Shown piece after piece: positions 3,664 through 31,558 of a stretch of 41,805 nt of DNA. This DNA is from a virus, in IMG/VR virus record IMGVR_UViG_3300011115_000186, positions 1 to 41,805 of that record, one strand, 5' to 3'. The translations under genes were made by a program, and so were the position numbers. A model generated the notes under the pieces. That model was not told where the DNA came from, did not search any database, and worked only from the letters and a program-made list of their open reading frames with translations. Within the stretch, counting starts at the first letter, position 1. Each line of letters begins with the position of its first letter.

Positions 3664-3672
3664 GGACAAATC

Positions 3673-6204: not shown

Positions 6205-6206
6205 AC

Positions 6207-12911: not shown

Positions 12912-13128
12912 CGCGCCAAGTCCGACAACCGAAGATACCCTCCTCGGTTGTCGTGTAGACTCTGACCCTGATTCCCGCTTTTTTAGCCGTTGTGTCGATG
13001 ATATAAGTCAAGTAGGAGGGCTTCATGGTCGGTATAAAGAAGCTATCTCCCACCTGCATACCTGAGTAGGGAAAGACCCAAACAGGTTCATCGTATGGCT
13101 GTGAATCACTCGGCGGCTTTTTCTTCAT
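12904..13128 (-). CDS. small conserved phage protein, end of the early operon
   Basis: This 74-residue protein has a Lys/Ser/Pro-rich start and a compact core: PYSGMQVGDSFFIPT, a middle YIIDTTAKKAGIRVRVYTT, and an ending with GIFGCRTWRVS. The pattern MQVGDSFFIPT...VR...RVWR is familiar from small phage and bacterial proteins often found near replication genes, and probably forms a small alpha/beta fold that could bind nucleic acid. No function is known to me. It overlaps the end of the primase-helicase gene by 23 bases in another frame and is the last gene of the minus-strand operon. Its TAG overlaps the tail of the convergent virion gene. Confidence 0.7.
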   Translation of the reverse strand: MKKKPPSDSQPYDEPVWVFPYSGMQVGDSFFIPTMKPSYLTYIIDTTAKKAGIRVRVYTTTEEGIFGCRTWRVS

Positions 13129-15958: not shown

Positions 15959-15970
15959 AGCCGCAGAGAC

Positions 15971-15993
15971 AAAAAAGCGGAGACACCTCCGCT
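15971..15993 (-). terminator. intrinsic terminator/attenuator before the primase-helicase gene
   Basis: Read on the minus strand, there is a perfect 7-bp stem (AGCGGAG pairing with CTCCGCT, 4-base loop) followed by six T residues. It lies after the HTH gene and 12 bases before the primase-helicase start, so it could reduce transcription into that gene. Confidence 0.65.
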
Positions 15994-16010
15994 ATGTGCG
16001 AGTTAAATCG

Positions 16011-16349
16011 TTAACTCACCGTCTTTTTGCTACCTACCTTGATAGGACTGCCAAGCATATCCTGAAGGTAGATTCGCGCTTCGCTAAGAGTCTTGCACGG
16101 TAGCAACCCCCTAGCCATATCCTCCTCTACTAGTTTAATAAATAGTTCCACTCGCTCACGCTTTTTGAACCGTATCTCCCCACCCCTGAACCACGAATGA
16201 AGAGTCATGCGTGTGGTATTGAAAACTTGGGCGACATAGGAAGCAGGTAGATTTGCATCAATACAAGTGACAGCTAAATCCAACCCAAGCTTGTATACGC
16301 TTGCGGTTTGTACCCTGTTCAGGAGGGCGGGGCTATACGGGCGGCTCAT
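16011..16349 (-). CDS. helix-turn-helix DNA-binding protein
   Basis: This 112-residue protein has a clear helix-turn-helix region at about residues 28-56: CIDANLPASYVAQVF, then NTTRMTLHSWFRGG. The C-terminal half is helical and basic. It resembles small HTH proteins of phages that sit beside replication genes. Its start overlaps the stop of the upstream putative SSB gene (TAATG), so the two are probably translationally coupled. It may bind the origin or regulate early promoters; several palindromes in this window are possible targets, but nothing links them directly. A terminator-like hairpin follows the gene. Confidence 0.75.
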   Translation of the reverse strand: MSRPYSPALLNRVQTASVYKLGLDLAVTCIDANLPASYVAQVFNTTRMTLHSWFRGGEIRFKKRERVELFIKLVEEDMARGLLPCKTLSEARIYLQDMLGSPIKVGSKKTVS

Positions 16350-17194
16350 TATTTCTTAGTCCACTTCTTCACTATGTCGTTGACATCATCTGCTCCTGCC
16401 ACGGCTGGCTTTGCAGTCTGACGCTTGGTGGGTTCAGAAATGGCATCGGGTTGGCTAGGTGGCTCGACTTCCTCAGTCGCGTCTGTCTTGTAGACAGTCA
16501 GCCTAACAGCGTTCTCAGCAGCGGGGGTTTTGCCTTGCTGAATAACAGCATCGCGCATATCGGGAGGTACTGCGCTCACTGGCGAGAACAGCAGCCGAGG
16601 TACTGGCGAGTTGATATCAAACTGCATTTTGGTCACAACGCGCCCAGCCGAGACATTGTTATTAGCAAGCATCTGAATGTACGGACGGAAAGGCCACTTG
16701 CCCCCTTCTTCCTTGCCGAATGAACTAGTCGCTGGCAACACCAACTGATACACATCTCCCGATGGATCATTAGGCAGGACTACAGCGGTGCGCCAAGACA
16801 GGCGACAAGCGGTTCCAGTACCCCCTTGACCTGAACCCTTGACTGAGTTGGGGCAGGTAGAGCAGGTTTCCGCATAGGGCGCTCTAACCTCTGCATCTGG
16901 AACCTTAGAGTCATTAGACCAGCAAGCAGGGGACAGCTTCACACCCTTCTTATACGAACTGTTGTAGTAGGTGCGGGATGCGTCATGCGCCATCTTGACC
17001 ACGATGACGTTCATGTAGTTGTCGGTGTTAACACTCTGCTCTTTACCGCCTACGATTTTGCGGAACACGCGCCCCTCAATGGATATGCGCTTATTACCTT
17101 TGGTTGCATTACCTGCAACGGCTAGGGTGTCTTCATCAAGGCCCAATTCGATTAGGTCTGATCCTTGAAACATGGTTGCGAGTTGATTACTCAT
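16349..17194 (-). CDS. putative single-stranded DNA-binding protein
   Basis: This 281-residue protein begins with a polar N-terminus and has a beta-rich core (ISIEGRVFRKIVGG, YMNVIVVKMAHD). A Cys cluster, CWSND...CSTCPNS...CR, may bind zinc. The C-terminal ~70 residues are low-complexity Pro/Glu/Thr-rich and end in DDVNDIVKKWTKK. An OB-like core plus a flexible tail, placed among helicase, polymerase and primase genes, suggests a phage ssDNA-binding protein; related phages annotate similar genes this way, from recollection. It lacks the typical acidic DDDLPF tip of bacterial SSB, so the assignment is moderate. It is spaced 14 bases from the upstream gene and overlaps the HTH gene. Confidence 0.6.
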   Translation of the reverse strand: MSNQLATMFQGSDLIELGLDEDTLAVAGNATKGNKRISIEGRVFRKIVGGKEQSVNTDNYMNVIVVKMAHDASRTYYNSSYKKGVKLSPACWSNDSKVPDAEVRAPYAETCSTCPNSVKGSGQGGTGTACRLSWRTAVVLPNDPSGDVYQLVLPATSSFGKEEGGKWPFRPYIQMLANNNVSAGRVVTKMQFDINSPVPRLLFSPVSAVPPDMRDAVIQQGKTPAAENAVRLTVYKTDATEEVEPPSQPDAISEPTKRQTAKPAVAGADDVNDIVKKWTKK

Positions 17195-17208
17195 GATTTA
17201 TAAATACC

Positions 17209-17622
17209 TTAAACTGTAATTTCACTGGTGGAAGAAGCCTTGCGTACAACAATATCGTACTCACGCAGGGCATTCACGCCGGGAGGTAAGCCTTGACCCA
17301 CTCTTTCAGCTATGAATTCTTTGAAGTTGCGTTGATGGATGCGGCGTTCAAGCAGATCAATAGAGCCTTGCTCTTCTATGAAAGTCTTGAAGTGATCCCA
17401 ATCGGTGCAAAAATATCTATCCTTAACTTGGCGCGTTACCGTACCAAAGGTGGTACGCAGCCCACTCACATTCGTCGTATTGCAGATGTCCAGTAAAGCA
17501 GCTTCGATCTGTTCCATGTCTGCTTTCAGGGTTCCGTCTTGCGCTTCATAGGAACTTTTTAGGTTCTCACGTTGTCTCCTTATTGTCAAATAGGTTTCTA
17601 CTAATGCTTCTGTGTTAACCAT
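17209..17622 (-). CDS. conserved phage protein with N-terminal coiled coil (unknown)
   Basis: This 137-residue protein starts with a coiled coil (residues ~5-45, including YLTIRRQRENLKSSYEAQDG). A conserved-looking core follows: GTVTRQVKDRYFCTDWDHF and LERRIHQRNFKEFIAE, with a C-terminal beta strand YDIVVRK. Similar proteins lie between recombination and SSB-like genes in other phages, and a recombination-accessory role (Gam-like) is conceivable but not shown here. It has a GGAG ribosome site inside the end of the helicase gene and overlaps that gene by 8 bases, which implies coupled translation. Confidence 0.65.
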   Translation of the reverse strand: MVNTEALVETYLTIRRQRENLKSSYEAQDGTLKADMEQIEAALLDICNTTNVSGLRTTFGTVTRQVKDRYFCTDWDHFKTFIEEQGSIDLLERRIHQRNFKEFIAERVGQGLPPGVNALREYDIVVRKASSTSEITV

Positions 17623-19189
17623 TGTCTGCTCCTAATTCTTCACGATACAGGTCTACCAATTTCTCGTGTAAGTCCACCTTGCTTTGCAGCATTGCGTACA
17701 TACGGCGCTCCACCTCAGACCCTTGGAGGTGTATTACTGTCATACTGTTCTTCTGCCCTACTCGGTCAATCCGGGCAATACATTGCAGATAGGTTTCAAC
17801 AGACATGACGGGTGACCAGAACACAACCGTGTCCGCAGCGGTCAGCGTGACGCCGTGCGATGCAGCTTGCGGTTGTATTAATAACACTCTAGGATCGGTC
17901 ATAGTTTGAAACCGATTAAAGATAGTGGAGCGCGAGTTCGCTGTAACATCCCCGGAAATAACTTCATTAGTCACCCCGGTCTTATTCAAGTAGTTCTTCA
18001 GCAGCGTTAGTGTGTGCTTGTACGGTACAAAGATTAGAACCTTGTGAAGCGCCTCGTCCAGAACTTCTTGCAGGGCGTTGAGTCTTGGGGTGATGTCAAA
18101 CTCCACCACATTGCCACCATCTGTGTAGACAGCGCCCCCGGATAGTTGGAGCAAGCGAGTCAGAGCAGCCGCAGCGTTGACCGTACTGATAGTCTCACCT
18201 ACGGTAGTTATCTGCATTTCCTTCAGTAGTTCCTTGTAGTACTTCAATGCCTGTGGGGATAGCGGCACTACTCGCGTCTGGTACACAACATCAGGCAGAT
18301 CAAGGCATTGGGCTTTCTCGTACCGGATGGCTGGCTGCAACGCATCAAACACCATCTCCCTAGACCCTACCTTTGGAACCCATTTGAACTTGGTAATCTG
18401 GGTCATTACCTTGTCTTTCCATGCCGTCATGTACTTCGGTACATTGTCTGGGTTGATCATCTTGGCAAGCCCAAATGCATCCATAGGAGACTGCGCGGCG
18501 GGAGTCCCGGTCATCATCCACATATACGCATCTTTCCGCACTAGCCTAGCCAATGTGCGCCACCGTTTGGTTGATGCTGTCTTGTAGGCATTGGCTTCAT
18601 CCACAATGATCAGATCGAACCTAGCCTCTGCTATAGCCCCCTGAACTACATTCACACCATCGTAGTTGATGATCACAAAGTCGTAATTGCCTTTGATAAT
18701 CTTCTCGCGCTTTGAGGTAGCGCCATGCGCGATAGCGGAGGTACGATGCATTGCAGTCTTGAATAGATCAGCTTGCCATGCGGACTGCATGATGGATAGG
18801 GGGCATATCACTAGTACACGCTTCACCAGCCCCTGATTCATTAAGTAGTCTGCTGCCCATATAGCAGCGGAAGTCTTGCCTGTACCCGCCTCATTGAAAC
18901 AGAACGCTCGTTTATACAGGGACAGGAACCGTGAGGTATCTTTTTGGTGAGCAAACGGCTGGAACATTCCGGGCCAGCTATAGTCACGCTCTATGGGAGA
19001 GGGAACCTTGATAGATAATGGTGCAATACGCGCAAGGCGCTGCATCTCGTCTAGCCCCCAATAAACTACAACATCAGCTATACCTTTATCTGTGCCTAAG
19101 ACTTCGCTCTTGGGGATATAACTAACGATTGTTCGCGCAATGTCTTGGGGACAATGGAACCTAACTGCGCTACTATTTAATATTTCCAT
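17615..19189 (-). CDS. SNF2-family DEAD-like DNA helicase/translocase
   Basis: This 524-residue superfamily 2 ATPase has an N-terminal Q-type region (QPFAHQ, ~77-82), motif I AGTGKT (101-106), motif Ia VLVICPLSIMQSAW, motif II DEAN (197-200), motif III MTGTPAAQSP (226-235) and motifs V-VI ending QCIARIDRVGQ (469-479). This order fits SNF2-type helicases carried by phages, which move along DNA during replication or recombination. The DEAN box instead of DEAH is within the range of the family. It is the first gene after a strong promoter and a 180-base leader that could fold, so it probably starts its own transcript. It overlaps the next gene by 8 bases. Confidence 0.88.
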   Translation of the reverse strand: MEILNSSAVRFHCPQDIARTIVSYIPKSEVLGTDKGIADVVVYWGLDEMQRLARIAPLSIKVPSPIERDYSWPGMFQPFAHQKDTSRFLSLYKRAFCFNEAGTGKTSAAIWAADYLMNQGLVKRVLVICPLSIMQSAWQADLFKTAMHRTSAIAHGATSKREKIIKGNYDFVIINYDGVNVVQGAIAEARFDLIIVDEANAYKTASTKRWRTLARLVRKDAYMWMMTGTPAAQSPMDAFGLAKMINPDNVPKYMTAWKDKVMTQITKFKWVPKVGSREMVFDALQPAIRYEKAQCLDLPDVVYQTRVVPLSPQALKYYKELLKEMQITTVGETISTVNAAAALTRLLQLSGGAVYTDGGNVVEFDITPRLNALQEVLDEALHKVLIFVPYKHTLTLLKNYLNKTGVTNEVISGDVTANSRSTIFNRFQTMTDPRVLLIQPQAASHGVTLTAADTVVFWSPVMSVETYLQCIARIDRVGQKNSMTVIHLQGSEVERRMYAMLQSKVDLHEKLVDLYREELGADNG

Positions 19190-19373
19190 ACTACCTATAC
19201 TTAATTAAACTATGACGGACGGGGGGAGCGTCCCCCCACCCGATCAACCCCGCGCACCAAAAAGCAAATACGCTGATCGACTGATATGGTTTGGGCAAAC
19301 TAGGAGTACCGCAACTGCAACCCTTCGGTAGGACACCCTACCCGGCCCACTCATACCTTATGACCGTACCTAC
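19190..19373 (-). other. structured 5' leader of the SNF2 helicase transcript
   Basis: About 180 non-coding bases lie between the promoter and the helicase start. On the minus strand I see several hairpins: GGTAGG-GTGT-CCTACC (around 19326-19342), GTTTG-CC-CAAAC (around 19290-19301), and a 7-bp G/C arm pair at 19221-19237 just upstream of the start codon. No T run follows, so this is not a simple terminator. It could be a regulatory leader or small RNA. Confidence 0.4.
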
Positions 19374-19401
19374 ATGATAGCGGCTATTTCCGCAATGTCA
19401 A
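19374..19401 (-). promoter_or_regulatory. sigma70-type promoter for the helicase-primase transcript
   Basis: On the minus strand there is TTGACA (19396-19401), a 16-bp spacer and TATCAT (19374-19379). The -35 box is half of an inverted repeat, AATGTCAA / TTGACATT, at about 19394-19416, which could be an operator. Confidence 0.65.
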
Positions 19402-19415
19402 GTTAAAATTGACAT

Positions 19416-19733
19416 TTATTTTCGTGGTTTGCGTTCTTTTTTGCTGGTTTCGGAGACTAGGTTGCCCTGCGAGTCACGCCTGAACGAGCGATTCTTAGCT
19501 GCGCTCTCTATGCGTAAACCATCCTTATTAGAGCCACCCTTGTCTAATGCCTTGACATGGGCAACATCCTTGCCCTCTCGACGGTCTGCTTCGCCGTTGT
19601 GGTTGTCATCTGCACCTGTCTTGTCTATTGAGCGGCGACCCCGCTGGCGTTCCATGCGGCGTTCGTGTTCACCACGCGCCTTCTGTTGTTGGTACTCCAG
19701 CTTATAAGGTCTAGGTTTATTAACGTAGGGCAT
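19416..19733 (-). CDS. small basic HNH-like phage protein
   Basis: This 105-residue, very basic protein has an HNH-like core, DVAHVKALDKGGSN followed by ...IESAAKNRSFRR. This matches the second half of small HNH-type proteins that phages often carry, with a His, a GG turn and an Asn. The first catalytic elements are not clear, so it may bind DNA without cutting it. The N-terminus is rich in Arg, Lys, Glu and Gln and is probably helical. It overlaps the upstream 62-aa gene by 14 bases and is followed by the promoter of the helicase unit. Confidence 0.6.
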   Translation of the reverse strand: MPYVNKPRPYKLEYQQQKARGEHERRMERQRGRRSIDKTGADDNHNGEADRREGKDVAHVKALDKGGSNKDGLRIESAAKNRSFRRDSQGNLVSETSKKERKPRK

Positions 19734-19908
19734 CTTCTTGCTCCTTCATGTGACGGATTGAGTTGAGCATGATTCTGGTTTCCACCAAGGTGGTCATGGC
19801 AGCGCCTATGGCTTCGTCATACTGTTTGTCCAGCATGGCAGCGTGAGCGCGTTTGAGTCCATCTTCTGCCATCATGCAGGGGTAAGCGTAGTCAATTACC
19901 TCGGTCAT
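19720..19908 (-). CDS. small hypothetical helical protein
   Basis: This is a 62-residue, largely helical protein (for example LKRAHAAMLDKQYDEAIGAA), overlapping its upstream neighbour by ATGA and its downstream neighbour by 14 bases. The helical pair pattern slightly resembles small TPR-like or antitoxin-like folds, but no family is recognised. Its tight coupling to the RecB-like nuclease and the HNH-like gene suggests it is real and expressed with them. Confidence 0.55.
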   Translation of the reverse strand: MTEVIDYAYPCMMAEDGLKRAHAAMLDKQYDEAIGAAMTTLVETRIMLNSIRHMKEQEDALR

Positions 19909-20570
19909 TTTGATTTGTAGAACTCACAGGTTTTAACAGGACACCAGCCGCATAGTCCAGTAGGGTTAGCTTGCCATGTGTCAGATACATAGGAATGGTG
20001 TAGCCGTTCAAGGTTCCACTTAAAATCGTCCCACAGAGAATCCTTATCATCTCGGGCATATTCGGCGGTTATGAAATGCTCGTGCATAACGAACAGTAGC
20101 CCAGCCTTGAAATGCTTGACTTCAGGGAAATGTTCAAATCCCATAAGCGCCATCAACTGAAGCTGTTTCGTGTCAGGGTACTTATTGCTCCCGGTCTTGT
20201 AGTCCACAATAAACCCTTGGTCACCATTAACCACTATCAGATCAGCGATGCCTCGCACCCAATAATCCTTAGCGCCAAAAGTACACGCCTTCTTCTCGTA
20301 AGTTAGCGCCATGCGTAGTTCAGGGAACTTTGTACCCTCCATGTCCCTAAGGGGATCAAGCTGATCTTTGAACCGTTGATAGTTCTCCTGTAGGGGAGTG
20401 CCATCCTTGACATAGTGTTCCAGCGCATGGTGAACCGCTGTTCCATACAGCATCTGCTGCGTAGGATACTTCTCCCACTTTTTAAGGACTTTAACCTCTT
20501 GATACTGTTTAGGGCAGTTGATGTAGTCTTTGAGGCCAGAATACGACCACTTGATTTCGGAAGGTTGCAT
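19905..20570 (-). CDS. RecB/Cas4-like PD-(D/E)XK exonuclease with probable Fe-S cluster
   Basis: This 221-residue nuclease has the Cas4/RecB family features in order: WSYSGLKDYINCPKQY with C19, GTAVHHALEHY (H47/H48), GIADLIV with D110, IVDYKTG with D123 and K125, and a following Gln (Q136). Three more Cys near the end, CGWCPVKTC (C207, C210, C215), together with C19 fit the four-Cys iron-sulfur cluster of Cas4 and AddB-type nucleases. It likely trims DNA ends during recombination, replication or host DNA breakdown. No Cas genes or CRISPR array are present, so a CRISPR role is not supported. It lies between the DNA polymerase and helicase genes. Confidence 0.85.
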   Translation of the reverse strand: MQPSEIKWSYSGLKDYINCPKQYQEVKVLKKWEKYPTQQMLYGTAVHHALEHYVKDGTPLQENYQRFKDQLDPLRDMEGTKFPELRMALTYEKKACTFGAKDYWVRGIADLIVVNGDQGFIVDYKTGSNKYPDTKQLQLMALMGFEHFPEVKHFKAGLLFVMHEHFITAEYARDDKDSLWDDFKWNLERLHHSYVSDTWQANPTGLCGWCPVKTCEFYKSK

Positions 20571-20610
20571 GATACTGATTTAACTGAGAAGTTTAGGGAT
20601 TAGTATCGTA

Positions 20611-22518
20611 TCAGCAATCTCCGTAAGTTGCACCTACTTTTGCTTCACAGGCTACAGGCAGTTCCTTGCACCAGTCGGGCGGCGTTGACATGATACCAGT
20701 TATTGCCGCTACAGCTTCATTTACTTCATCTTCCGGCACAACACACACCGCCGCATCATGCACAGTTAAAGCTACACGGTACAGCTTGTCGATTGCCAGC
20801 ATCTGCGTTCCTACGATTATCCGCGCTAGTGCCTGTACCACATTCTCTACAACGCCCCCACCCCATATGGATACCTCTCCTTTGCGTGAGTCATAGACCA
20901 CACGAGATTTCCCATCCTTCTCGGCTAGGCGTAAGTTGGGGTATCTAATACGCAAACCATTGGGCAAGATGATGCTGTCCTTGTCATGAGTTACGCAACC
21001 GTGCAATCCAAACTTGATTGGCGCGGCTATGCTGTTGTTCATCATGTCATCAAGCATCTGATCAGCCTCACCCCACAGGCCGACTATCTTGTTATTGCTC
21101 CTGCGGTACAGGTCAACAATGCGTTTGCACTCAGCCTCTTCTAGCTTCACGCTTACAGGTTGAGAGGTAGACAATGTATGTTGCAGTTTTAATGCACCTG
21201 TGCCGTAGCCAAGGCCGAGTATGCAAGTCTTACCTACAAACCTTTCCGTTGGGTCTTTCTTAGAGATGGGTCGCTCGTATACATCAGTAGCAAAGATGGA
21301 GTACACATCGTCCCCGTTGGCAAACTGCTTGGTCACATCCTCCTGACCAGCGAACCACGCAAGCACCCGCGCCTCTATCTGAGAAGAGTCGCAGTTGATG
21401 ACCATGTAACCATCGGGCGGAATGATCGCCTTCTTTAGTGCTTTCTTCTTAACATCTCTTGATGGAAGATTCTGGAAGTTAACCTTGTCCGTGCCAGCCC
21501 ACCGACCCGTGTGCGCTCCGTAGTACTTCAGGGGGACAGGAAGCATCCCATTGTTTCTATGCCCAATAGCCCTGAAACGCTCAATGCGCTTCTCCTCCAT
21601 CGTAGACTTAGTACCCAGACGCACAGCGCATAGATGCTGTATGAATACATCCTCACCTTCGGCTAGGGCAATAAAGCCCTCATCCTTCTTGGCAAGCGCG
21701 AATGCTTCCTTGCCTGTTACCGGACTAATCTTTGTAGGTGGGGTGATGCCAAAGTCTTGTAACACCTTGGCAAACTTGGCGTTGCTGGAGAGTTGCTTAC
21801 GCACATCCTCCTCTGTGTCGCACTTCAACTTGTCCTTGAGTGAGGACAGTAGTTCGGACTTCTCATTGACCAGATCAGTTAGACGATCCTGCAATGTATC
21901 CTGATCCACATACAGCATTGGGTTGGTGAACATCCGTATGGTCATGTTGATCAGTTGGAGTTCTTCCGGGGGGAATGCCATAGCCATTATTGCAAACAGC
22001 TTATAGGTCAGCCGCACATCGTTCTTACAATACTCGCCGTACCGTGCCAAGTCTTCTGGCGTAAATGCGGCGCGCGACTTACCGATGGCTTCCAGTACTT
22101 CTGTACCTTTCTCTCCTATCTGGTAGCGTTCTGCTAGCTTGGCAAGTGAGCCACCTGCATCAACACCGTGAACGGCTCGTGCCATAGACAGCGTATCAAG
22201 ATAGGCATGGGGTGTGATGTTGAATATCCAGCTAAGGATAGCCCCATCGAACAGGGTGTTATGTGCAAGGACGGTACTGTTCTTCCAGTCAAACTGTCTC
22301 AGCCATTTGCGTAGCGTTTCACGGTCACCTGAATTCCAAACTGGCTCCCCATCATCTACCTGTACGGCAACGCCTATGACTTCAAATCTAGGATCGCGTA
22401 CATATTCTTCTGTTGTTAGCTTACTGAACCCAAAGTCCTTGGTGTAGTAAGTTTCAAAATCGACTGTGATAAAAGACAATGTATTCCCCAAGGGGGCAGG
22501 GGGCAAGCCCCCCGCCAT
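20611..22518 (-). CDS. polA: family A DNA polymerase with 3'-5' exonuclease
   Basis: This is a replicative polymerase of the Pol I family, 635 residues from the ATG at 22518. A TTG at 22557 would add 13 residues; I prefer the ATG because the TTG lies within the upstream gene. Exonuclease motifs are FITVDFETYY (D20, E22), LAHNTLFDG (D91) and YCKNDVRLTY (D167). Polymerase motifs are A: NCDSSQIEAR (D377), B: RFVGKTCILGLGYG (R426, K430, Y438), and C: VHDAAV (H587, D588). The residue matching E. coli Pol I Phe762 is Leu434. Motif C has Ala where HDE has Glu. No 5' nuclease domain is present, as usual in phages. A G/C-rich hairpin (22499-22512) lies at the very start of the frame, so an even later start is possible. 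Confidence 0.92.
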   Translation of the reverse strand: MAGGLPPAPLGNTLSFITVDFETYYTKDFGFSKLTTEEYVRDPRFEVIGVAVQVDDGEPVWNSGDRETLRKWLRQFDWKNSTVLAHNTLFDGAILSWIFNITPHAYLDTLSMARAVHGVDAGGSLAKLAERYQIGEKGTEVLEAIGKSRAAFTPEDLARYGEYCKNDVRLTYKLFAIMAMAFPPEELQLINMTIRMFTNPMLYVDQDTLQDRLTDLVNEKSELLSSLKDKLKCDTEEDVRKQLSSNAKFAKVLQDFGITPPTKISPVTGKEAFALAKKDEGFIALAEGEDVFIQHLCAVRLGTKSTMEEKRIERFRAIGHRNNGMLPVPLKYYGAHTGRWAGTDKVNFQNLPSRDVKKKALKKAIIPPDGYMVINCDSSQIEARVLAWFAGQEDVTKQFANGDDVYSIFATDVYERPISKKDPTERFVGKTCILGLGYGTGALKLQHTLSTSQPVSVKLEEAECKRIVDLYRRSNNKIVGLWGEADQMLDDMMNNSIAAPIKFGLHGCVTHDKDSIILPNGLRIRYPNLRLAEKDGKSRVVYDSRKGEVSIWGGGVVENVVQALARIIVGTQMLAIDKLYRVALTVHDAAVCVVPEDEVNEAVAAITGIMSTPPDWCKELPVACEAKVGATYGDC

Positions 22519-22522
22519 GTTA

Positions 22523-23011
22523 TCAAGCGATGTGTTGGCGCATGATTTCGCGCTCAAGATACCAACGCGCTTTCTCTAGGTCTTGAACCTTATTGCCCTT
22601 GTGGTCTGCTCGGGTGAGATACTTTACTACATTGCCAAGGTTGTAGCCCAGACCCTTTGCCTCAATGAAGTCTATTGTCTCAACGCCCCCTACCTTGTAG
22701 TGCGGTGGGTGATTGACCAGATCAGCTAGTACATCCTTATCTGGCTCGGTCATCGGAGCATACATCACCTCTTGCGGTGCTGGCGCTTTATCACGACGCA
22801 TATAGCCACGCTTCAGCACAGACTTGCCATCCCAGACTTTAGGTATCTTAGGTATCAGGGACTCGCTTGTTTTGCGCTTGATATAGCTACGCATTTGATA
22901 TACCTTCTTCACCGGAACCTTGAAATGCTTTGCTATGTCTGCGCTTGATACAGTTGGATTATCAGCAATGAATTTACTAATACTACGATTAACTAGTGTA
23001 GATTTTTTCAT
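22523..23011 (-). CDS. HTH-DUF3310 fusion protein
   Basis: This 162-residue protein has two parts. Residues ~18-45 form a helix-turn-helix-like stretch (SSADIAKHFKVPVKKVYQMR). Residues ~98-158 fit DUF3310, a phage family sometimes called nucleotide kinase-like: LVNHPPHYKVGGVETIDFIE, LGNVVKYLTRADHKGN and DLEKARWYLEREI. The function of DUF3310 is not established; it is common in phage replication regions. The fusion suggests a DNA-binding role or regulation of nucleotide metabolism. No clear ribosome site precedes the ATG. Its stop lies 4 bases before the polymerase ATG. Confidence 0.8.
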   Translation of the reverse strand: MKKSTLVNRSISKFIADNPTVSSADIAKHFKVPVKKVYQMRSYIKRKTSESLIPKIPKVWDGKSVLKRGYMRRDKAPAPQEVMYAPMTEPDKDVLADLVNHPPHYKVGGVETIDFIEAKGLGYNLGNVVKYLTRADHKGNKVQDLEKARWYLEREIMRQHIA

Positions 23012-25773: not shown

Positions 25774-26113
25774 GCATCTCTCCAAGGAATGCCTGATCTA
25801 GGATCAGGATGTACAGGTTCTTAGTCACTTGCCAGCCAATGTCATCTAGCTTCTTGTCTTGCACATTGATGTATGCATCTATCGGATTTATCGCCCACTT
25901 CTCCCTGAAGTTAGGAGGGAAAGCATGGATCATAGTCATCGTTGCCTTGATCTTGTCGGGGAGCGTTTCTTCCGAGAAGTTGCGAATTTTATCCTTCCCA
26001 ATGCACAAAGCATAGTTGTATTTTTCAACCATCATGGGCGTTCGATAGCTGCCAGCTATCTTTGCATGGGCAATGGGAACATAGTCTGTACCAAGTTCTC
26101 CGTCCCATTTCAT
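25745..26113 (-). CDS. hypothetical protein (122 aa)
   Basis: This 122-residue protein overlaps the upstream 311-aa gene by ATGA. Its sequence includes GTDYVPIAHAKIAGSYRTP, KYNYALCIGKDKIRNF and INPIDAYINVQDKKLDDIGW. There is no recognisable catalytic motif, signal or membrane segment. The C-terminal WQVTKNLYILILDQAF is hydrophobic but too short and polar-flanked to call a membrane helix. Its coupling to the preceding unknown gene suggests that the products act together. Confidence 0.55.
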   Translation of the reverse strand: MKWDGELGTDYVPIAHAKIAGSYRTPMMVEKYNYALCIGKDKIRNFSEETLPDKIKATMTMIHAFPPNFREKWAINPIDAYINVQDKKLDDIGWQVTKNLYILILDQAFLGEMHGRHTREEG

Positions 26114-27045
26114 GGGGCTACCTTGGGAATAAACACATACATTCCCTTGCCATCTGCTACAGCTACATCAATATCCTCGTGGTATCCCTCATCGTAGGGA
26201 AGTCCAAATTCATTCGTCTTAGTGAACTTTGGTTTACCTTGCATATAGGTGTTGATCATCTTCACATCTACTGCAATGTCTGGGCAGTCTTCCAATTTAT
26301 CATAGCGTTTCAGTCCCTCATGAATCACTAATATCTTATCCTTCAAAGACATATCACCTACAAGATAGTAGCTTACATGAGCATCAGACCATTGACCCAT
26401 TTGACCTATTCCTATCACAACCCTGAACCCGCCATCAGAGAATCTTTTCATGGTTACCCGCTTCTCATCGTACTTAGCAAACCTAACGCTGTATTCCTTG
26501 TAAGCATCAGTAATCATTTGAGTGTGTGTTTGTACAGAATATTTGTCTATGTCCAAATACGATTCTGCCATAGCTAGGATTGCAAGTGATCCAAGTTTAA
26601 TACTCGGTTTGTTGTAATCACTATTTCCAATACTAATAATGTTAGAGGGTATATCGTTCGTAAAGATGTTAGTAACTTTCTCAATGGTAGGACTTTCACC
26701 ATTTCGCTTGATCGCGGTGATTAGATGTTTTATGCTCTTGGAGGTACGGATATGTCTGCTGTTACGCCCTCCTACCGCCCTATCCTTCGCTACAATATCT
26801 TTTGCTTCATAGAAGTATTCATCCTTAGTAGTCTTATCGCCCATCACCCCGCCCTTCTTCACGCCGATAAATCCAGCGGGGATGCCAGTTACTGTAAACA
26901 CACTTAACTTATTATTTTGAATGTTCGATGCCACCCTCGTATTGAAGGTATGGCAGAACTCGTTGGCGAATTTACATAGGTCGTGATTATTGTTCAACAC
27001 GCCCATCACTTCTTCTGTATTCGCGTAGATAGAAATTATGCTCAT
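26110..27045 (-). CDS. hypothetical protein (311 aa) near the MoxR/VWA genes
   Basis: This 311-residue protein has a good ribosome site (CAGGAGAAAGC). I do not recognise its family. Visible features are FTVTGIPAGFIGVKKGG near residue 55, a basic stretch RHIRTSKSIKHLITAIKRNG near 100, GGFRVVIGIGQMGQWSD near 210, and an ending YVFIPKVAP. The composition is mixed alpha/beta with many Lys and Asp and no membrane segment. The gene looks somewhat more AT-rich than its neighbours. It lies two genes downstream of the MoxR/VWA pair, so it could be a client or partner, by position only. Confidence 0.55.
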   Translation of the reverse strand: MSIISIYANTEEVMGVLNNNHDLCKFANEFCHTFNTRVASNIQNNKLSVFTVTGIPAGFIGVKKGGVMGDKTTKDEYFYEAKDIVAKDRAVGGRNSRHIRTSKSIKHLITAIKRNGESPTIEKVTNIFTNDIPSNIISIGNSDYNKPSIKLGSLAILAMAESYLDIDKYSVQTHTQMITDAYKEYSVRFAKYDEKRVTMKRFSDGGFRVVIGIGQMGQWSDAHVSYYLVGDMSLKDKILVIHEGLKRYDKLEDCPDIAVDVKMINTYMQGKPKFTKTNEFGLPYDEGYHEDIDVAVADGKGMYVFIPKVAP

Positions 27046-27057
27046 TGCTTTCTCCTG

Positions 27058-28011
27058 TTAGTTAAAACGAATTACCTTAGACCCATCTGCCATTACTATC
27101 CGGTGTCCCCATGTAGCGGACGGAAACTCCTCCCCTGCCTTCAATTCTTTCTCCTCAAACACATGATCACACCCCATAAGAACAGTCTCGCGCAAGGTAC
27201 AAGGTAAAGAATTATGTAGAGTCTTGAGGAATGATTCGTACTGCTTAGGATTGGTTTGAAAGTGGAGCCACCTTACGCCGTGAATATTATGTATTAGCGC
27301 AAAGTACACAGCGGCATCTACAAACTTATTTTCTTTTACTAGCTGAACAAAACTATCATTACTTAATCGGTATACACCATTGTACTTTTTACTTATGTCT
27401 CTTACGACTTCAACTACCCCCTCGCTAGTCATCGCATTAATCATTGGTTTATATACATTAAGAAAGTCTGTATACAAACTCATCTCCTGATCGGCTTTCT
27501 TACGATTCACCCTCCTCTGAAATACTCTATAGGGAGTTAGTGCCTTACCATCATTCAGGCTTATGCGTAGACCTTCAAACCCCGGATGAATATAGGGGTT
27601 CCTATTTATGAATCCTTTCTTAGTGTAGTTTGCACCATCTATGATTACCCCTTGGTGCTTTGAACTATGACTAACCGCTGCAAATAGCATATTACTAAGC
27701 ATCATTGTTTGTCCGTTATCATTGATGTTGTGAAACTCAATTGAGTTATCACTATGCACAGTAGCAATTGCACAGGACTTCCATCGTTTCATCATGCTCT
27801 CGGTTACCGTGTCTCTACCTGCTGATGCATCATCAGCTTCTTGTCTACCGTGGTAGTAGATAGTCATAGACCCATCTTCCCTATTCACCCGGAAGTGCCG
27901 ACTAGAATACTTTCTATCCCCGAGAGGGTACGCATTTGAGTTCTTGTATGGGCCTCTCGCAATGACCCTCTGCATCGCGCTGTAAGATACTTTTCGTATA
28001 TCGTGGAACAT
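27058..28011 (-). CDS. hypothetical protein (317 aa) next to the VWA gene
   Basis: This 317-residue protein starts 9 bases after the VWA gene with a strong AAGGAG site. No family is recognised. It begins MFHDIRKVSYSAMQRV, has DGSMTIYYHGRQEADD near residue 46, the basic RVFQRRVNRKKAD near 162, and WGHRIVMADGSKVIRF at the end. Tyr, His and Arg are frequent, which would fit a nucleic-acid-binding or virion-like beta protein. It and the next gene look more AT-rich than their neighbours, possibly a separate origin. Its constant closeness to the VWA gene would be worth testing in related phages. Confidence 0.55.
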   Translation of the reverse strand: MFHDIRKVSYSAMQRVIARGPYKNSNAYPLGDRKYSSRHFRVNREDGSMTIYYHGRQEADDASAGRDTVTESMMKRWKSCAIATVHSDNSIEFHNINDNGQTMMLSNMLFAAVSHSSKHQGVIIDGANYTKKGFINRNPYIHPGFEGLRISLNDGKALTPYRVFQRRVNRKKADQEMSLYTDFLNVYKPMINAMTSEGVVEVVRDISKKYNGVYRLSNDSFVQLVKENKFVDAAVYFALIHNIHGVRWLHFQTNPKQYESFLKTLHNSLPCTLRETVLMGCDHVFEEKELKAGEEFPSATWGHRIVMADGSKVIRFN

Positions 28012-28020
28012 AATTACTCC

Positions 28021-29229
28021 TTAGTTAGAGATAAATACTTTCTTGCCAGACGGCGGTTCCCATGTTTTGTTCTGTGTGACCATCCACAGAGTAGGCGCTT
28101 CTATGTCCCACACGATGTCGTTCTCCAGATACCCATCGGTGAACACCACTACGCATTGAGCGTTAATCTTCTTCTCTTTGATGTACTTCGCAACACACCC
28201 AACCCTCGTACCCCCACCACCCTTGGGCTTGAGCATCTTTGCCACGCCAGAGTAATCACCGGAGAACTTCTGCTCACCATGCACCATCGTGTCCCACCAC
28301 AGGATTCTTACCATTTCAGGGGTTACTGAATCGCAGATCGACACAAACTCGGTAGCGAACTCATTCAGTTCCTTCTCCCCGATAGACCCCGATGTATCTA
28401 TGGCTATGACAATCTCACCTACAGTCTCATCCTCTACCGATGGCATATAGATATCATTAGGAATCAGCCTACGGTTGAACCTCCTCCATGTGTACTCATC
28501 CTTGCCCTTGGTCTGTGCCACACACCACTCGCGGAACGCTTCCTTCCAATTAACCTTGGTCTCCAGTATCTCTGTGATATGTCTGGGTATATCCACACCT
28601 AGCCGACCAGCAAGCAACGCCCCTTCGCGCAACGCACGGTCTACTCGGGCATCCATCTCCTTCATCTTGTCTGCGTTCATCTCCTCCCCATCGCCCTCGG
28701 TATCATGCTCATCGAACTGATACCCACCTCCACCACCATCTTGCGGTTCACCCTTGCCTGAATCCTTACCTTTGCCACCACCCCCCTCTTTATCTTCCTT
28801 CAGTAACTTATATACCTCACGCATATTCATGTTGTGATACTTGTGGTCATAGCACCCGCCTTCTGGCAGTTTCACCAAGGCTTTGTCCTTGATGTTCACG
28901 ATGATGTCATTGACCACATAATCAGCCGCCCGATTCGCCAAGTCCTTATCCTCTACGAATAAGTCCCTGTTGTGGATCATGTGGCGCAACGCTATGTGAA
29001 GGTTCTCGTGAAGTACGAGGCCAGTTACCTCTCGGTCATCTTTGCAAACCTCCTCCAAGAACTTACGCCCGTAGCGTTTGTTCACCCCATCCGTGTATGC
29101 AGTAATGTTGTCATCCGTCACATCGCTCATACCCATCATCATCACGCCCGAATACAACGCAGTCTCGGGGTGCTTCATCATCGCAATGTGCGACTTCTTC
29201 AGTCGCTGTTCTTGAGTCAATGCCATCAT
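28021..29229 (-). CDS. VWA-like protein with N-terminal metallopeptidase domain (DUF2201 type)
   Basis: This protein is 402 residues from the ATG at 29229, which overlaps the stop of a 30-aa membrane peptide (ATGA). A TTG at 29238 is the longer alternative. The N-terminal domain has VLHENLHIALRH, an HExxH zinc site (H74-H78). A disordered Gly/Asp/Glu-rich linker runs from ~148-190. The C-terminal VWA-like domain has a MIDAS: AIDTSGSIG (D278, S280, S282), GGGGT (T341) and FTDGY (D365). This order fits proteins with DUF2201_N and DUF2201 domains. Such proteins normally work with a MoxR-type AAA+ ATPase, and one is encoded just upstream. Target and cell location are unknown. Confidence 0.85.
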   Translation of the reverse strand: MMALTQEQRLKKSHIAMMKHPETALYSGVMMMGMSDVTDDNITAYTDGVNKRYGRKFLEEVCKDDREVTGLVLHENLHIALRHMIHNRDLFVEDKDLANRAADYVVNDIIVNIKDKALVKLPEGGCYDHKYHNMNMREVYKLLKEDKEGGGGKGKDSGKGEPQDGGGGGYQFDEHDTEGDGEEMNADKMKEMDARVDRALREGALLAGRLGVDIPRHITEILETKVNWKEAFREWCVAQTKGKDEYTWRRFNRRLIPNDIYMPSVEDETVGEIVIAIDTSGSIGEKELNEFATEFVSICDSVTPEMVRILWWDTMVHGEQKFSGDYSGVAKMLKPKGGGGTRVGCVAKYIKEKKINAQCVVVFTDGYLENDIVWDIEAPTLWMVTQNKTWEPPSGKKVFISN

Positions 29230-29318
29230 GCTCTCCAAAGTAAAAGGTCTATCAACACCACAATCAATGCAGTCATATACACCACAAAGAACGCAATCTT
29301 CTGTTTGTTTATTTTCAT
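29226..29318 (-). CDS. 30-aa membrane peptide between MoxR and VWA genes
   Basis: I read this tiny frame directly. AAGGGGAT precedes the ATG at 29318 by a few bases, and the TGA at 29226-29228 overlaps the VWA start (ATGA). The peptide is polar at both ends (MKINKQK...WRA) with one membrane helix between (IAFFVVYMTALIVVLIDLLL). It fills the only gap between the MoxR and VWA genes, and both the ribosome site and the overlap support translation. It could anchor the MoxR/VWA complex at the membrane, or serve only to couple translation. Confidence 0.5.
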   Translation of the reverse strand: MKINKQKIAFFVVYMTALIVVLIDLLLWRA

Positions 29319-29327
29319 ATCATCCCC

Positions 29328-30398
29328 TTACATGATCTGGAAGTTCTCAGTCGCCCACTTATTGATCTGCTGGTTGTATCGCGCAATGCGTGGCTTAGTC
29401 CGCATGATCATCGTGAAGAAGATCGACTGAACCTCGCTGCTCGGTATGCGGTTAACAAACTCCATGTAAGAGTTCAGGTCATCCTGAATCTCTATCGTGT
29501 CCACAGCTTCGAACATCATCATGATCAGCGCACTTATCTCGTCGGGTACACGGATAGTCTTAGGACTCTTGATGATCTCCTTGAAGGTAATCAGCTTGCC
29601 CTCCAGCGCAATGAACGCTGCCATACTCTTAGCTGCTGCCTCACCGATAGTCCCCGCGAGTGCCGCCATCATGGACTGCTCACCTATAACATCCTTGCTC
29701 TTGACGATGACCGATGACTTCGCTAATGACCTTGGGGACACGAACTGCCTGACCGTGCTTGATGGTTTGAAGATATACGGGTTGTCTGACTGATCAGGAT
29801 CGAGATACGACTTGAACGCCTTCGTAGTCATCGCCGCCCAAGCCCGGATCGGACGCGCAACGCCCTGCTTACTTGCCCACTCGTTCCATTCCTCATGTGT
29901 CGGCTTACGCATCTTGATCTCACAGACACGGTTCGCTGCGTGCGCCATCATCGTGTCACCCACCCCATCGGTTGTGTTGTTAGATGTACCAAAGACGATA
30001 GACCCTTCTGGCAGCGGCACATCACCCACACTACGCTCCAGCATCAACCGTGTGAAGATGATCTGCAATAGCTTGGGTGCTTTCATGAACTCGTCGAGCA
30101 TGATCACCTTCTTCTTGCCATTGCCCAGCTTGAACAATGAGGACACATAGTACTCAAGGGTCTTGGTCGCATGGTGCGGTATGGATGCTGCTATGTCCAT
30201 CATGTCCTTGACCGGGCAATCTACATAGATGAAGTCATACTCATCTGTGCCCATCTCTACCTCAAGCATCTTGAGGATGGATGACTTGCCACACCCCGGC
30301 TCGGAGACAATGATCGGCGTGATCTCGTGACCGATAGCGCGTATGGTTTTAGCGCACTCGTTGATGTTCAGGTTCAAGGTGAAGTTAATCTGTGCCAT
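29328..30398 (-). CDS. MoxR-type AAA+ ATPase
   Basis: This 356-residue AAA+ ATPase has Walker A SEPGCGKSS (32-40), Walker B VIMLDEF (98-104), sensor 1 IVFGTSNNT (134-142) and a likely arginine finger in ANRVCEI (N156, R157). The GEPGxGKS-like P-loop with a MoxR/CbbQ/CobS arrangement and a VWA partner encoded just downstream fit the MoxR class, ATPases that remodel or insert cofactors into partner proteins. The C-terminal ~150 residues are helical and would include the lid and client-binding part. In a phage this pair may remodel host complexes or the phage replisome; the target is unknown. The ribosome site is modest (GAAAG). Confidence 0.85.
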   Translation of the reverse strand: MAQINFTLNLNINECAKTIRAIGHEITPIIVSEPGCGKSSILKMLEVEMGTDEYDFIYVDCPVKDMMDIAASIPHHATKTLEYYVSSLFKLGNGKKKVIMLDEFMKAPKLLQIIFTRLMLERSVGDVPLPEGSIVFGTSNNTTDGVGDTMMAHAANRVCEIKMRKPTHEEWNEWASKQGVARPIRAWAAMTTKAFKSYLDPDQSDNPYIFKPSSTVRQFVSPRSLAKSSVIVKSKDVIGEQSMMAALAGTIGEAAAKSMAAFIALEGKLITFKEIIKSPKTIRVPDEISALIMMMFEAVDTIEIQDDLNSYMEFVNRIPSSEVQSIFFTMIMRTKPRIARYNQQINKWATENFQIM

Positions 30399-30425
30399 GA
30401 TATGCTTTCAGGTTGTAGTGAATTA

Positions 30426-31325
30426 CTAGTTAAATTTCAACGGGGCAAACTTACTCAGCATCTCGTCTATGCCCTCTTTGACGGTTGCTCTTGCGTAGCT
30501 ACTCTCACGCAATTCCTCCACGGTCACCCCGCGCAATGTGTCGGTGATCTCGTCGCACGCAGCATTCAGGGCTGCATTGTTTGTCAGGTTGAACGACTTC
30601 AGCGTAGTACACAACTCCTTCGCTTGCGCGAATGTTGTGTCGTATATCTTCTTGCGCCTTGCCTTGCCATCTTCCCCTGCTACTGTCTCAGTACAGGCTG
30701 CACTCATCCTGCCAGCTATGCTGACCAACTGCTCGGATGCATCTGCCATCACCTGATCAATGATGGATGTGACCTGCCTCTCGTAGTGCTTCTTCAGATC
30801 GTCTGCGACTTCATCAGATATAGAGGAACGAAAGTCCCCGGCCGGTACATCGGTAACGAACAGCTTGATACGAAACTTGCCCCGCACTTCTTCCACTTCA
30901 GGATACTCTGAACGGTTAAACATATCGCCTTGCTTGAACGCCGCATCGCTGATCATCTGTGGATACTCCGTAAGGAACTCCTCCAGCAACTCTTTGAACT
31001 TGATCTCATGCAACCTGTACTCTGACATGAACCTCTCAAAGTTAATCATTGGGAGAAGCCGCATCGACCCACTCCAGTCATAGGTGACACGCTGAAGCCA
31101 GTTATAGACGGTCTGCCGATAATTCAGCAGCGTCTTATGCTTGATACTATTTGCCAACAGATTCTTTGTGAACCTGCCCGAGTCCGCATCTGCATTCTTC
31201 GCTGCGGTCACCTCATTGGAGATGGCGCGGTCTTGCTTGGTTGCGCTCCAGATGTTCATGTCCACGGTGACGATGTGTGCAGATGTTGCAAGGGAGATAA
31301 TGTGCTTGGGGGAATTGAGTTCCAT
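30426..31325 (-). CDS. conserved phage protein of the MoxR/VWA module (DUF3150-like?)
   Basis: This 299-residue, mostly helical protein with an AGGA ribosome site lies directly upstream of the MoxR gene (27-base gap). Segments include NYRQTVYNWLQRVTYDW, FERFMSEYRLHEIKFKELL, and RGKFRIKLFVTDVPAGDFRS followed by long helices. The size, helical content and fixed position before MoxR and VWA genes recall DUF3150 proteins of phages. I am not certain of the family and could not run a profile search. It may be the substrate or adaptor of the MoxR ATPase. Confidence 0.65.
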   Translation of the reverse strand: MELNSPKHIISLATSAHIVTVDMNIWSATKQDRAISNEVTAAKNADADSGRFTKNLLANSIKHKTLLNYRQTVYNWLQRVTYDWSGSMRLLPMINFERFMSEYRLHEIKFKELLEEFLTEYPQMISDAAFKQGDMFNRSEYPEVEEVRGKFRIKLFVTDVPAGDFRSSISDEVADDLKKHYERQVTSIIDQVMADASEQLVSIAGRMSAACTETVAGEDGKARRKKIYDTTFAQAKELCTTLKSFNLTNNAALNAACDEITDTLRGVTVEELRESSYARATVKEGIDEMLSKFAPLKFN

Positions 31326-31348: not shown

Positions 31349-31558
31349 TCAGGCCGAGGTGAACTTGGGATTTAATTGCTTGAGTAGACTCCTATCAGAT
31401 ATGTATATGTAATTGCTCTTGTTCATGGGCGCTATCGTGTGCTTGCGCTCACGCGCCACATCTTCCCCGCATGGCAGGCACAGGTTGTACCCTGCATTGG
31501 CTCGTTTGGCAGAGTAGATTTCACCGCACGCATTGCACAGGGGCTTCATGCGCCTCAT
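31349..31558 (-). CDS. small zinc-ribbon protein
   Basis: This 69-residue protein has four Cys in a treble-clef or ribbon arrangement, C8-x2-C11 and C27-x2-C30 (LCNACGEIYSAKRA ... LCLPCGEDVAR), followed by a basic, beta-rich tail ending in LLKQLNPKFTSA. Its start overlaps the upstream stop (ATGA). Similar small zinc proteins are common in phages and probably bind nucleic acid or RNA polymerase; that is inferred from the fold. It is the second gene behind the weak promoter at 31881-31909. Confidence 0.7.
   Translation of the reverse strand: MRRMKPLCNACGEIYSAKRANAGYNLCLPCGEDVARERKHTIAPMNKSNYIYISDRSLLKQLNPKFTSA

Follow-up and report, generated by a model that had tools for sequence, protein, structure and literature searches.

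What use does a phage have for a MoxR-like AAA+ ATPase encoded beside a protein that joins a metallopeptidase domain to a VWA domain? This question is raised by IMG/VR record IMGVR_UViG_3300011115_000186, a linear virus record of 41,805 bases from an uncultured phage, analysed here at its full length as the window; it is a fragment (related IMG/VR records are ~52-66 kb long). On its minus strand, at 28021-31325, lie three adjacent genes for a 299-amino-acid (aa) protein, a 356-aa AAA+ ATPase, and a metallopeptidase-VWA protein of ~401 aa (subunits A, B, and C), and all three open reading frames (ORFs) that a sequence-only reading of this DNA had listed are indeed present. In this marine phage lineage, the trio proved to be part of the core. 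The ATPase-VWA pair and its peptidase fusion are already known in phages. What appears to be new is evidence that the pair travels with replication genes and not with structural genes, sequence evidence that its HExxH domain is gluzincin-like, and the finding that a DUF3150-like third subunit is common to the phage module and a bacterial megaplasmid cassette, and that one subclade carries a conserved, unannotated micropeptide.

In the loci collected with the VWA protein (n=30) or with the 299-aa protein (n=80), the order 299-aa gene, ATPase, VWA was kept on one strand wherever the contig was long enough. Because these loci had been chosen by the trio genes themselves, the survey was repeated with the DNA polymerase as sole bait. 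Where the polymerase had at least 8 kb of upstream sequence, the complete trio was found, in order, in 17/17 loci; a few of the contigs are also present in the VWA and 299-aa sets, but their choice did not depend on the trio. The sequence-only reading had held that a lack of co-conservation would undo its module, and the three genes stay together in every polymerase-picked locus. A scan of genome contigs returned a single locus, on a phage-like contig inside an actinobacterial metagenome-assembled genome (MAG). The trio lies in the phage order on contig CAIPLJ010000099.1 of an ‘uncultured actinobacterium’ MAG; the VWA protein encoded there is 53% identical to that of the window, and the contig is likely one from a phage that was binned with the bacterium.

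The position of the module points to genome replication. The ATPase and the DNA polymerase lie on the same strand in 18/18 related records that have both, ~5-10 kb apart, with the terminase on the other strand, which bears out the earlier placement of the trio in an ‘early operon’, here a replication-side gene block. The replication block of the window (13106-22557, minus strand) encodes DNA polymerase A (20611..22557, identified by Pfam and PHROGs), an exonuclease, an SNF2 helicase, proteins of 137 and 281 aa, and a DUF927 primase. It is collinear with those of Pseudomonas phage Rollin (OR577172.1) and Rhizobium phage RHph_TM29 (MN988463.1), whereas the structural genes are of the HTVC023P type and the portal is nearest to the HTVC023P/MinM2 types, which makes this a mosaic genome. 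HTVC023P and CRP-902 have terminase, portal, and head genes in common with the window, and the module is absent from both (CRP-902 was read except for 2 kb). In RHph_TM29, the gene order of the replication block is the same as in the window, the ATPase and VWA genes immediately precede polA, and no structural-gene similarity to the window was detected. Of the window proteins compared with 30 kb of N4, only the ATPase and VWA proteins matched; the replication block and virion RNA polymerase typical of the Schitoviridae were not found in this comparison.

The first gene of the trio (subunit A, 30426..31325, minus strand) connects the phage module with plasmids. We call its product only DUF3150-like because its Pfam DUF3150 (PF11348) score of 18.8 bits is below the curated cut-off of 24.9; 17/37 of its relatives match the model, the best at 7.9e-5. 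It had been described as a helical conserved protein, and it is conserved, but its AlphaFold2 (AF2) model, with a predicted local distance difference test (pLDDT) score of 83, is not purely helical. A known fold was not found by Foldseek (best E 0.08), and VIA was set aside as a fold match, since its best Z of 8.9 spans the C-terminal helices only and may reflect just a common helical arrangement. No relative was detected in annotated phages by tblastn. A profile search found a family member in cyanophage MinM2, beside MoxR and VWA genes, and the MinM2 protein used as query matched on 39 plasmids, some of them conjugative. Alignment of the phage family with the MinM2/plasmid family by hhalign was full-length (probability 99.9, E 4.6e-36, 280 columns).

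The plasmids examined (Cupriavidus, Rhodovastum, Variovorax) carry a compact operon. All three subunits of this MoxR, DUF3150-like, and VWA cassette of Burkholderiales, Rhodovastum, and Variovorax plasmids are homologous to those of the phage trio, but the order is ATPase, DUF3150-like, VWA instead of DUF3150-like, ATPase, VWA, and one plasmid copy is without the HExxH. In that copy, on the Variovorax plasmid (6935-8221 of the stretch compared), the HExxH is lost and the MIDAS DxSxS retained, making it a candidate for a natural peptidase-dead variant. No member was found on IncC plasmid pAR060302 by family profile in its first 45 kb. A DUF3150-like gene was absent near the pair in N4, MIJ3, VCO139, RHph_TM29, an rV5-like phage, SABI, fENko-Kae01, and LY01; the ‘anti-sigma factor’ gene upstream of the pair in the rV5-like phage was considered and found to lie outside the family. 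In actinobacterial genomes, DUF2201_N occurs in 19/198, and an ATPase of the same family adjoins it in the loci examined. Our literature search found no paper on a DUF3150-like partner.

Subunit C (28021..29229, minus strand) combines the two domains that had been proposed for it. Its N-terminal DUF2201_N (‘putative metallopeptidase domain’) scores 86.6 bits against a cut-off of 23.2 and its C-terminal DUF2201 (‘VWA-like’) 61.5 bits against 26.4, and the protein matches phrog_1314 at E 3.2e-85. The TTG start at 29238 (405 aa) was corrected, an ATG at 29229 or 29226 being most likely. The HExxH motif, HENLH (H77-E78-N79-L80-H81, 28996..29010), keeps its H, E, N, and H in all 35 close relatives, with L80 varying. 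A wider set of 18 diverse homologues, drawn from N4 (gp25), jumbo phages, and plasmids among others, again has invariant H, E, and H, as well as the start Met, and the motif is retained at 20-30% identity across nine diverse phages. The domain is under strong constraint. Downstream of the HExxH, the invariant residues of the 18 homologues are the N, A, D, and N of an N-x-A-x-D-x3-N motif (28909..28935), not the Glu that is the third zinc ligand of gluzincins; D106, also invariant in the 35 relatives, is a candidate third metal ligand. The metal-ion-dependent adhesion site (MIDAS) of the VWA domain is complete, with DTSGS (D281-S285, 28384..28398), T344 (28207-28209), and D368 (28135-28137) invariant in the 35 relatives, and the VWA fold was found by structure comparison (Z about 12, root-mean-square deviation 2.6-2.9 over 133-136 residues).

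Could the HExxH lie in an unrelated fold, as the sequence-only reading had allowed? Profile comparison of the N-terminal domain with solved metallopeptidases gave MJ1213 (E 1.2e-4), projannalysin (0.012), and an M48 peptidase (0.025), and the AF2 model places the HExxH in a helix (68-83) after a small sheet (strands 38-57), with D106 in the following helix. Both results argue against an unrelated fold and favour a gluzincin-like metallopeptidase type. The match to the minimal gluzincins MJ1213 and projannalysin surrounds the HExxH helix; the window domain differs in its conserved Asn/Asp motif downstream. The family also carries a misleading name. Phrog_1314 is labelled ‘HNH endonuclease’, as are its members in many deposited phage genomes, but N4 gp25 (6165-7307 of the stretch compared) scores 293 bits for DUF2201_N and 158 bits for DUF2201, and the label is probably a propagated misannotation.

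The ATPase (subunit B, 29328..30398, minus strand) matches phrog_1297 ‘ATPase’ at E 2.1e-50, with Midasin first among PDB chains by profile (E 1.3e-7), and its gene adjoins that of a VWA partner, as in the MoxR family. The claim of a MoxR-type enzyme with complete motifs holds for the catalytic residues: K38, D102, E103, N140, R157, and R223, which make up the Walker A Lys, Walker B, sensor 1, arginine finger, and sensor 2 set, are invariant in 36 relatives. The Walker A sequence, SEPGCGKS (30282..30305), has invariant E33, P34, G35, G37, and K38, but Ser replaces its first glycine; the Walker B acidic pair D102-E103 is at 30090..30095. Among Pfam models, only general AAA ones hit the window protein, all below cut-off, and AAA_3 does not match anywhere in the window. 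Of the relatives, 6/36 match AAA_5 and 3/36 match AAA_3 with an E of 0.01 or better. Since no Pfam cut-off is passed, we use the label MoxR-like. The families foreseen for the trio were therefore recovered for DUF2201_N and DUF2201, whereas DUF3150 and the AAA_5/MoxR models stayed below their cut-offs. In Vibrio phage VCO139, the half of the ATPase gene (3511-5911 of the stretch compared) that would encode Walker A is missing, and two HNH homing endonuclease genes come before it, an arrangement suggestive of invasion by an intron or homing endonuclease.

Among the closest described relatives of the pair are N4 gp24 (ATPase) and gp25 (vWFA, DUF2201) of the Schitoviridae, which have in common with it PHROGs 1297/1314, DUF2201_N plus DUF2201, the HExxH, the MIDAS, and the replication-side position; they differ in having 22-24% identity and neither a DUF3150-like gene nor a membrane micro-ORF that we could find. 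N4-like phages have 14 core genes; genes 24 and 25 belong to these and give middle transcripts (PMC4193335). From jumbo phages, Iyer et al. (2021) reported a MoxR ATPase paired with a vWA protein whose N-terminal part is a metallopeptidase, the same architecture and pairing as in the window, and proposed virion assembly with peptide processing, drawing on the MoxR-VWA pair of archaeal virus ATV, which acts in tail development (PMC7824862). The third subunit, the plasmid cassettes, and the gene-content comparison made here point elsewhere. Haloviruses carry AAA-VWA pairs as well (PMC7911831). The purpose of such modules in phages had been called unknown; proposals have in fact been published, as have the pair in phages and its peptidase fusion (PMC7824862; core genes 24/25 in N4, PMC4193335). 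The main text of a published CRISPRi-ART phage study that includes N4 holds no genome-wide N4 screen. We also rejected a mass-spectrometry record of the fENko-Kae01 ATPase as evidence of virion location: the sample was merely ultrafiltered, and 220 phage proteins were found in it.

In the window, the gap between the ATPase and VWA genes contains an unannotated micro-ORF (29226..29318, minus strand) for a 30-aa peptide with one predicted membrane helix, MKINKQKIAFFVVYMTALIVVLIDLLLWRA, whose stop overlaps the ATG of the VWA gene. Membrane micro-ORFs occupy this gap in 28/63 distinct loci, against 1.26 expected from dinucleotide shuffles, and the peptides are 28-38 aa long with a single predicted membrane helix. 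A family with an [LMI]Dx[FYL]xWR tail is found in 25 loci (19 distinct DNA sequences). Because its WR codons double as the Shine-Dalgarno sequence (TGGAG) of the next gene, the last five codons were dropped from the selection test. The remainder gave a median dN/dS (ratio of nonsynonymous to synonymous substitution rates) of 0.40, with 144, 40, and 196 differences at codon positions 1, 2, and 3, the pattern to be expected of a peptide kept hydrophobic. Selection thus persists without these codons; the conservation of the WR tail itself could reflect the Shine-Dalgarno sequence. Other subclades have a different small membrane ORF or a gap too short for any, so the micropeptide is not a universal component; the N4 gp24-gp25 gap has no convincing membrane ORF.

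Several genes around the module are also part of its context. Directly downstream of the trio is gene D (27058..28011, minus strand, 317 aa), with no family above cut-off; more than half of the loci have it in this position, at 21-33% identity. It is followed, here and in many other loci, by gene E (26110..27045, minus strand, 311 aa), of no known family. Both evolve fast, at 21-34% identity among loci compared with about 50-75% for the trio, and they are not related to each other (hhalign probability 0.1). Directly upstream is a small CxxC...CxxC protein (31349..31558, minus strand, 69 aa) with weak zinc-finger matches, conserved in most loci and often an immediate neighbour. Farther away, a 162-aa protein adjoining the DNA polymerase (22523-23011, minus strand) has a C-terminal DUF3310 (73 bits), and the plus-strand block ends with a 2234-aa protein (6207-12911, plus strand) that carries the large polyvalent protein domain LPD38 close to its C-terminus (47 bits) and is possibly an injected polyvalent protein.

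Which function, then, do these observations favour? Our preferred reading, held tentatively, is a machine that remodels proteins at the expense of ATP, serves the replicon itself, and is linked to replication. It is favoured because the trio is core at the polymerase-picked loci and on the strand of the polymerase, because the pair is present in RHph_TM29 and missing from HTVC023P and CRP-902, and because the same cassette is found on plasmids, which make no virions. The HExxH kept across nine phages, the N-terminal profile match, the core and middle-transcribed N4 gp24/25, and the published ring, finger, and MIDAS mechanism add to this. Of the roles that the sequence-only reading had offered, ‘replisome maturation’ fits the gene-content evidence better than a machine acting on host proteins or against defence. 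The machine is possibly membrane-tethered, and the best reading of its timing is activity early to middle in infection.

By analogy with NorQD, CbbQO, and Midasin, the ATPase would form a six-fold ring plugged by the VWA domain, the MIDAS metal would grip a client by an acidic residue, and the energy of ATP hydrolysis would be used to twist or pull that client. In NorQD structures, a VWA finger sits in the ATPase pore and the action is a twisting one, presumed general for such pairs (PMC13036017), and NorD MIDAS mutants keep NorQ binding while the target is inactive, a result that suggests a client-gripping role for the MIDAS (PMC9976466). NorQ/NorD, CbbQ/CbbO, and RavA/ViaA all pair a MoxR ATPase with a MIDAS-bearing VWA partner, as in the window, but their VWA partners are not described with an HExxH peptidase domain or a DUF3150 partner, and their clients are host enzymes. 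In the phage, the metallopeptidase domain might clip the remodelled client or serve as a client-binding arm, and the DUF3150-like protein might select clients. In this subclade, the small membrane peptide may hold the machine at the inner membrane, where RavA-ViaA, both ATPase and VWA partner, is documented to bind (PMC9489729). The client would most likely be a protein complex on replicating or newly entered DNA, either the phage replication complex or a host protein bound to it.

A narrower version of this reading, which we consider rather improbable, is a machine common to phages and plasmids that clears proteins from DNA. The MoxR-like ring would strip proteins off replicating DNA and feed them to the fused minigluzincin-type protease, with the DUF3150-like protein as client selector and, in this subclade, the micropeptide as membrane anchor. 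This special case of a replication-linked role is suggested by the peptidase class, the AAA+ partner, and the replication link. Its counterpart, in logic and not by descent, would be eukaryotic Wss1/Spartan with Cdc48, and Wss1/Spartan have been placed in the minigluzincin class (PMC4559962).

Several observations weigh against a replication-linked role. Pseudomonas phage Rollin has the whole replication block and no detectable module, so this replication type does not strictly need it, and the pair seems to track the replication side without being indispensable for it. The pair is also found on actinobacterial chromosomes, and a replicon role is therefore not universal. Roseophage RPP1 has genes for virion proteins close to its homologues of N4 gp24/25 (PMC4193335). 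Finally, the putative metallopeptidase fold was deduced from sequence profiles, the fold search having covered the VWA domain only: in a whole-protein structure search for a zincin fold, the match list was filled by that domain.

The presence of the cassette on both phages and plasmids, some conjugative, could instead reflect a common need to survive in a host. The ATPase might pull host proteins apart and the metallopeptidase cleave them, defence proteins or the host polymerase for example, and the metallopeptidase domain itself, the early-side gene position, and the fast-evolving neighbours D and E would all suit such host takeover or anti-defence. Anti-defence genes are usually variable, whereas this core is not patchy, being present in 17/17 loci here and within the 14-gene core of N4-like phages; the pair on actinobacterial chromosomes does not fit either. 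No known defence partner was matched beyond generic ATPase similarity: PADLOC found no complete anti-phage defence system, giving weak generic ATPase matches to QatA and mad8 only, and the VMAP, iSTAND, and FtsH-like third components of MoxR-vWA conflict systems had no match in the Pfam scan (no dedicated models were run), the third component here being DUF3150-like. We regard a host-directed role as possible but doubtful.

Virion assembly or maturation, with the module as a chaperone with a processing peptidase, is what has been proposed for the same fusion in jumbo phages, with the ATV analogy in tail development (PMC7824862), and the structural genes near the pair in RPP1 (PMC4193335) agree with it. 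However, HTVC023P and CRP-902 have the structural genes without the module, RHph_TM29 has the pair with the replication block only, every record checked has its terminase on the other strand, plasmids with the same cassette make no virions, and N4 gp24/25 are middle, not late, genes (PMC4193335). Virion assembly now looks less likely, and we consider it unlikely overall; the gene-content evidence moves the likely role towards genome replication or maintenance. The explanation we rank last is metal insertion in the manner of NorQD or CobST, in which the HExxH would bind metal for delivery to a phage or host enzyme and cut no protein. MoxR-VWA pairs such as NorQD do insert metal (PMC13036017), and two metal sites, HExxH and MIDAS, are found in one protein; yet the window proteins scanned (part of the ORFs of an incomplete genome) included no recognisable client of the CobN type or any other metalloenzyme, and by profile the domain resembles peptidases.

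Few genes are core to all N4-like phages; those of the gp24/gp25 type are, and their homologues occur in several hundred phage records, where the VWA gene is widely mislabelled ‘HNH endonuclease’. The question of what they do has now been narrowed, as the pair appears to follow replication and not virion genes, the third subunit is common with plasmids, and the protease-like domain is constrained, which makes the function testable in N4.

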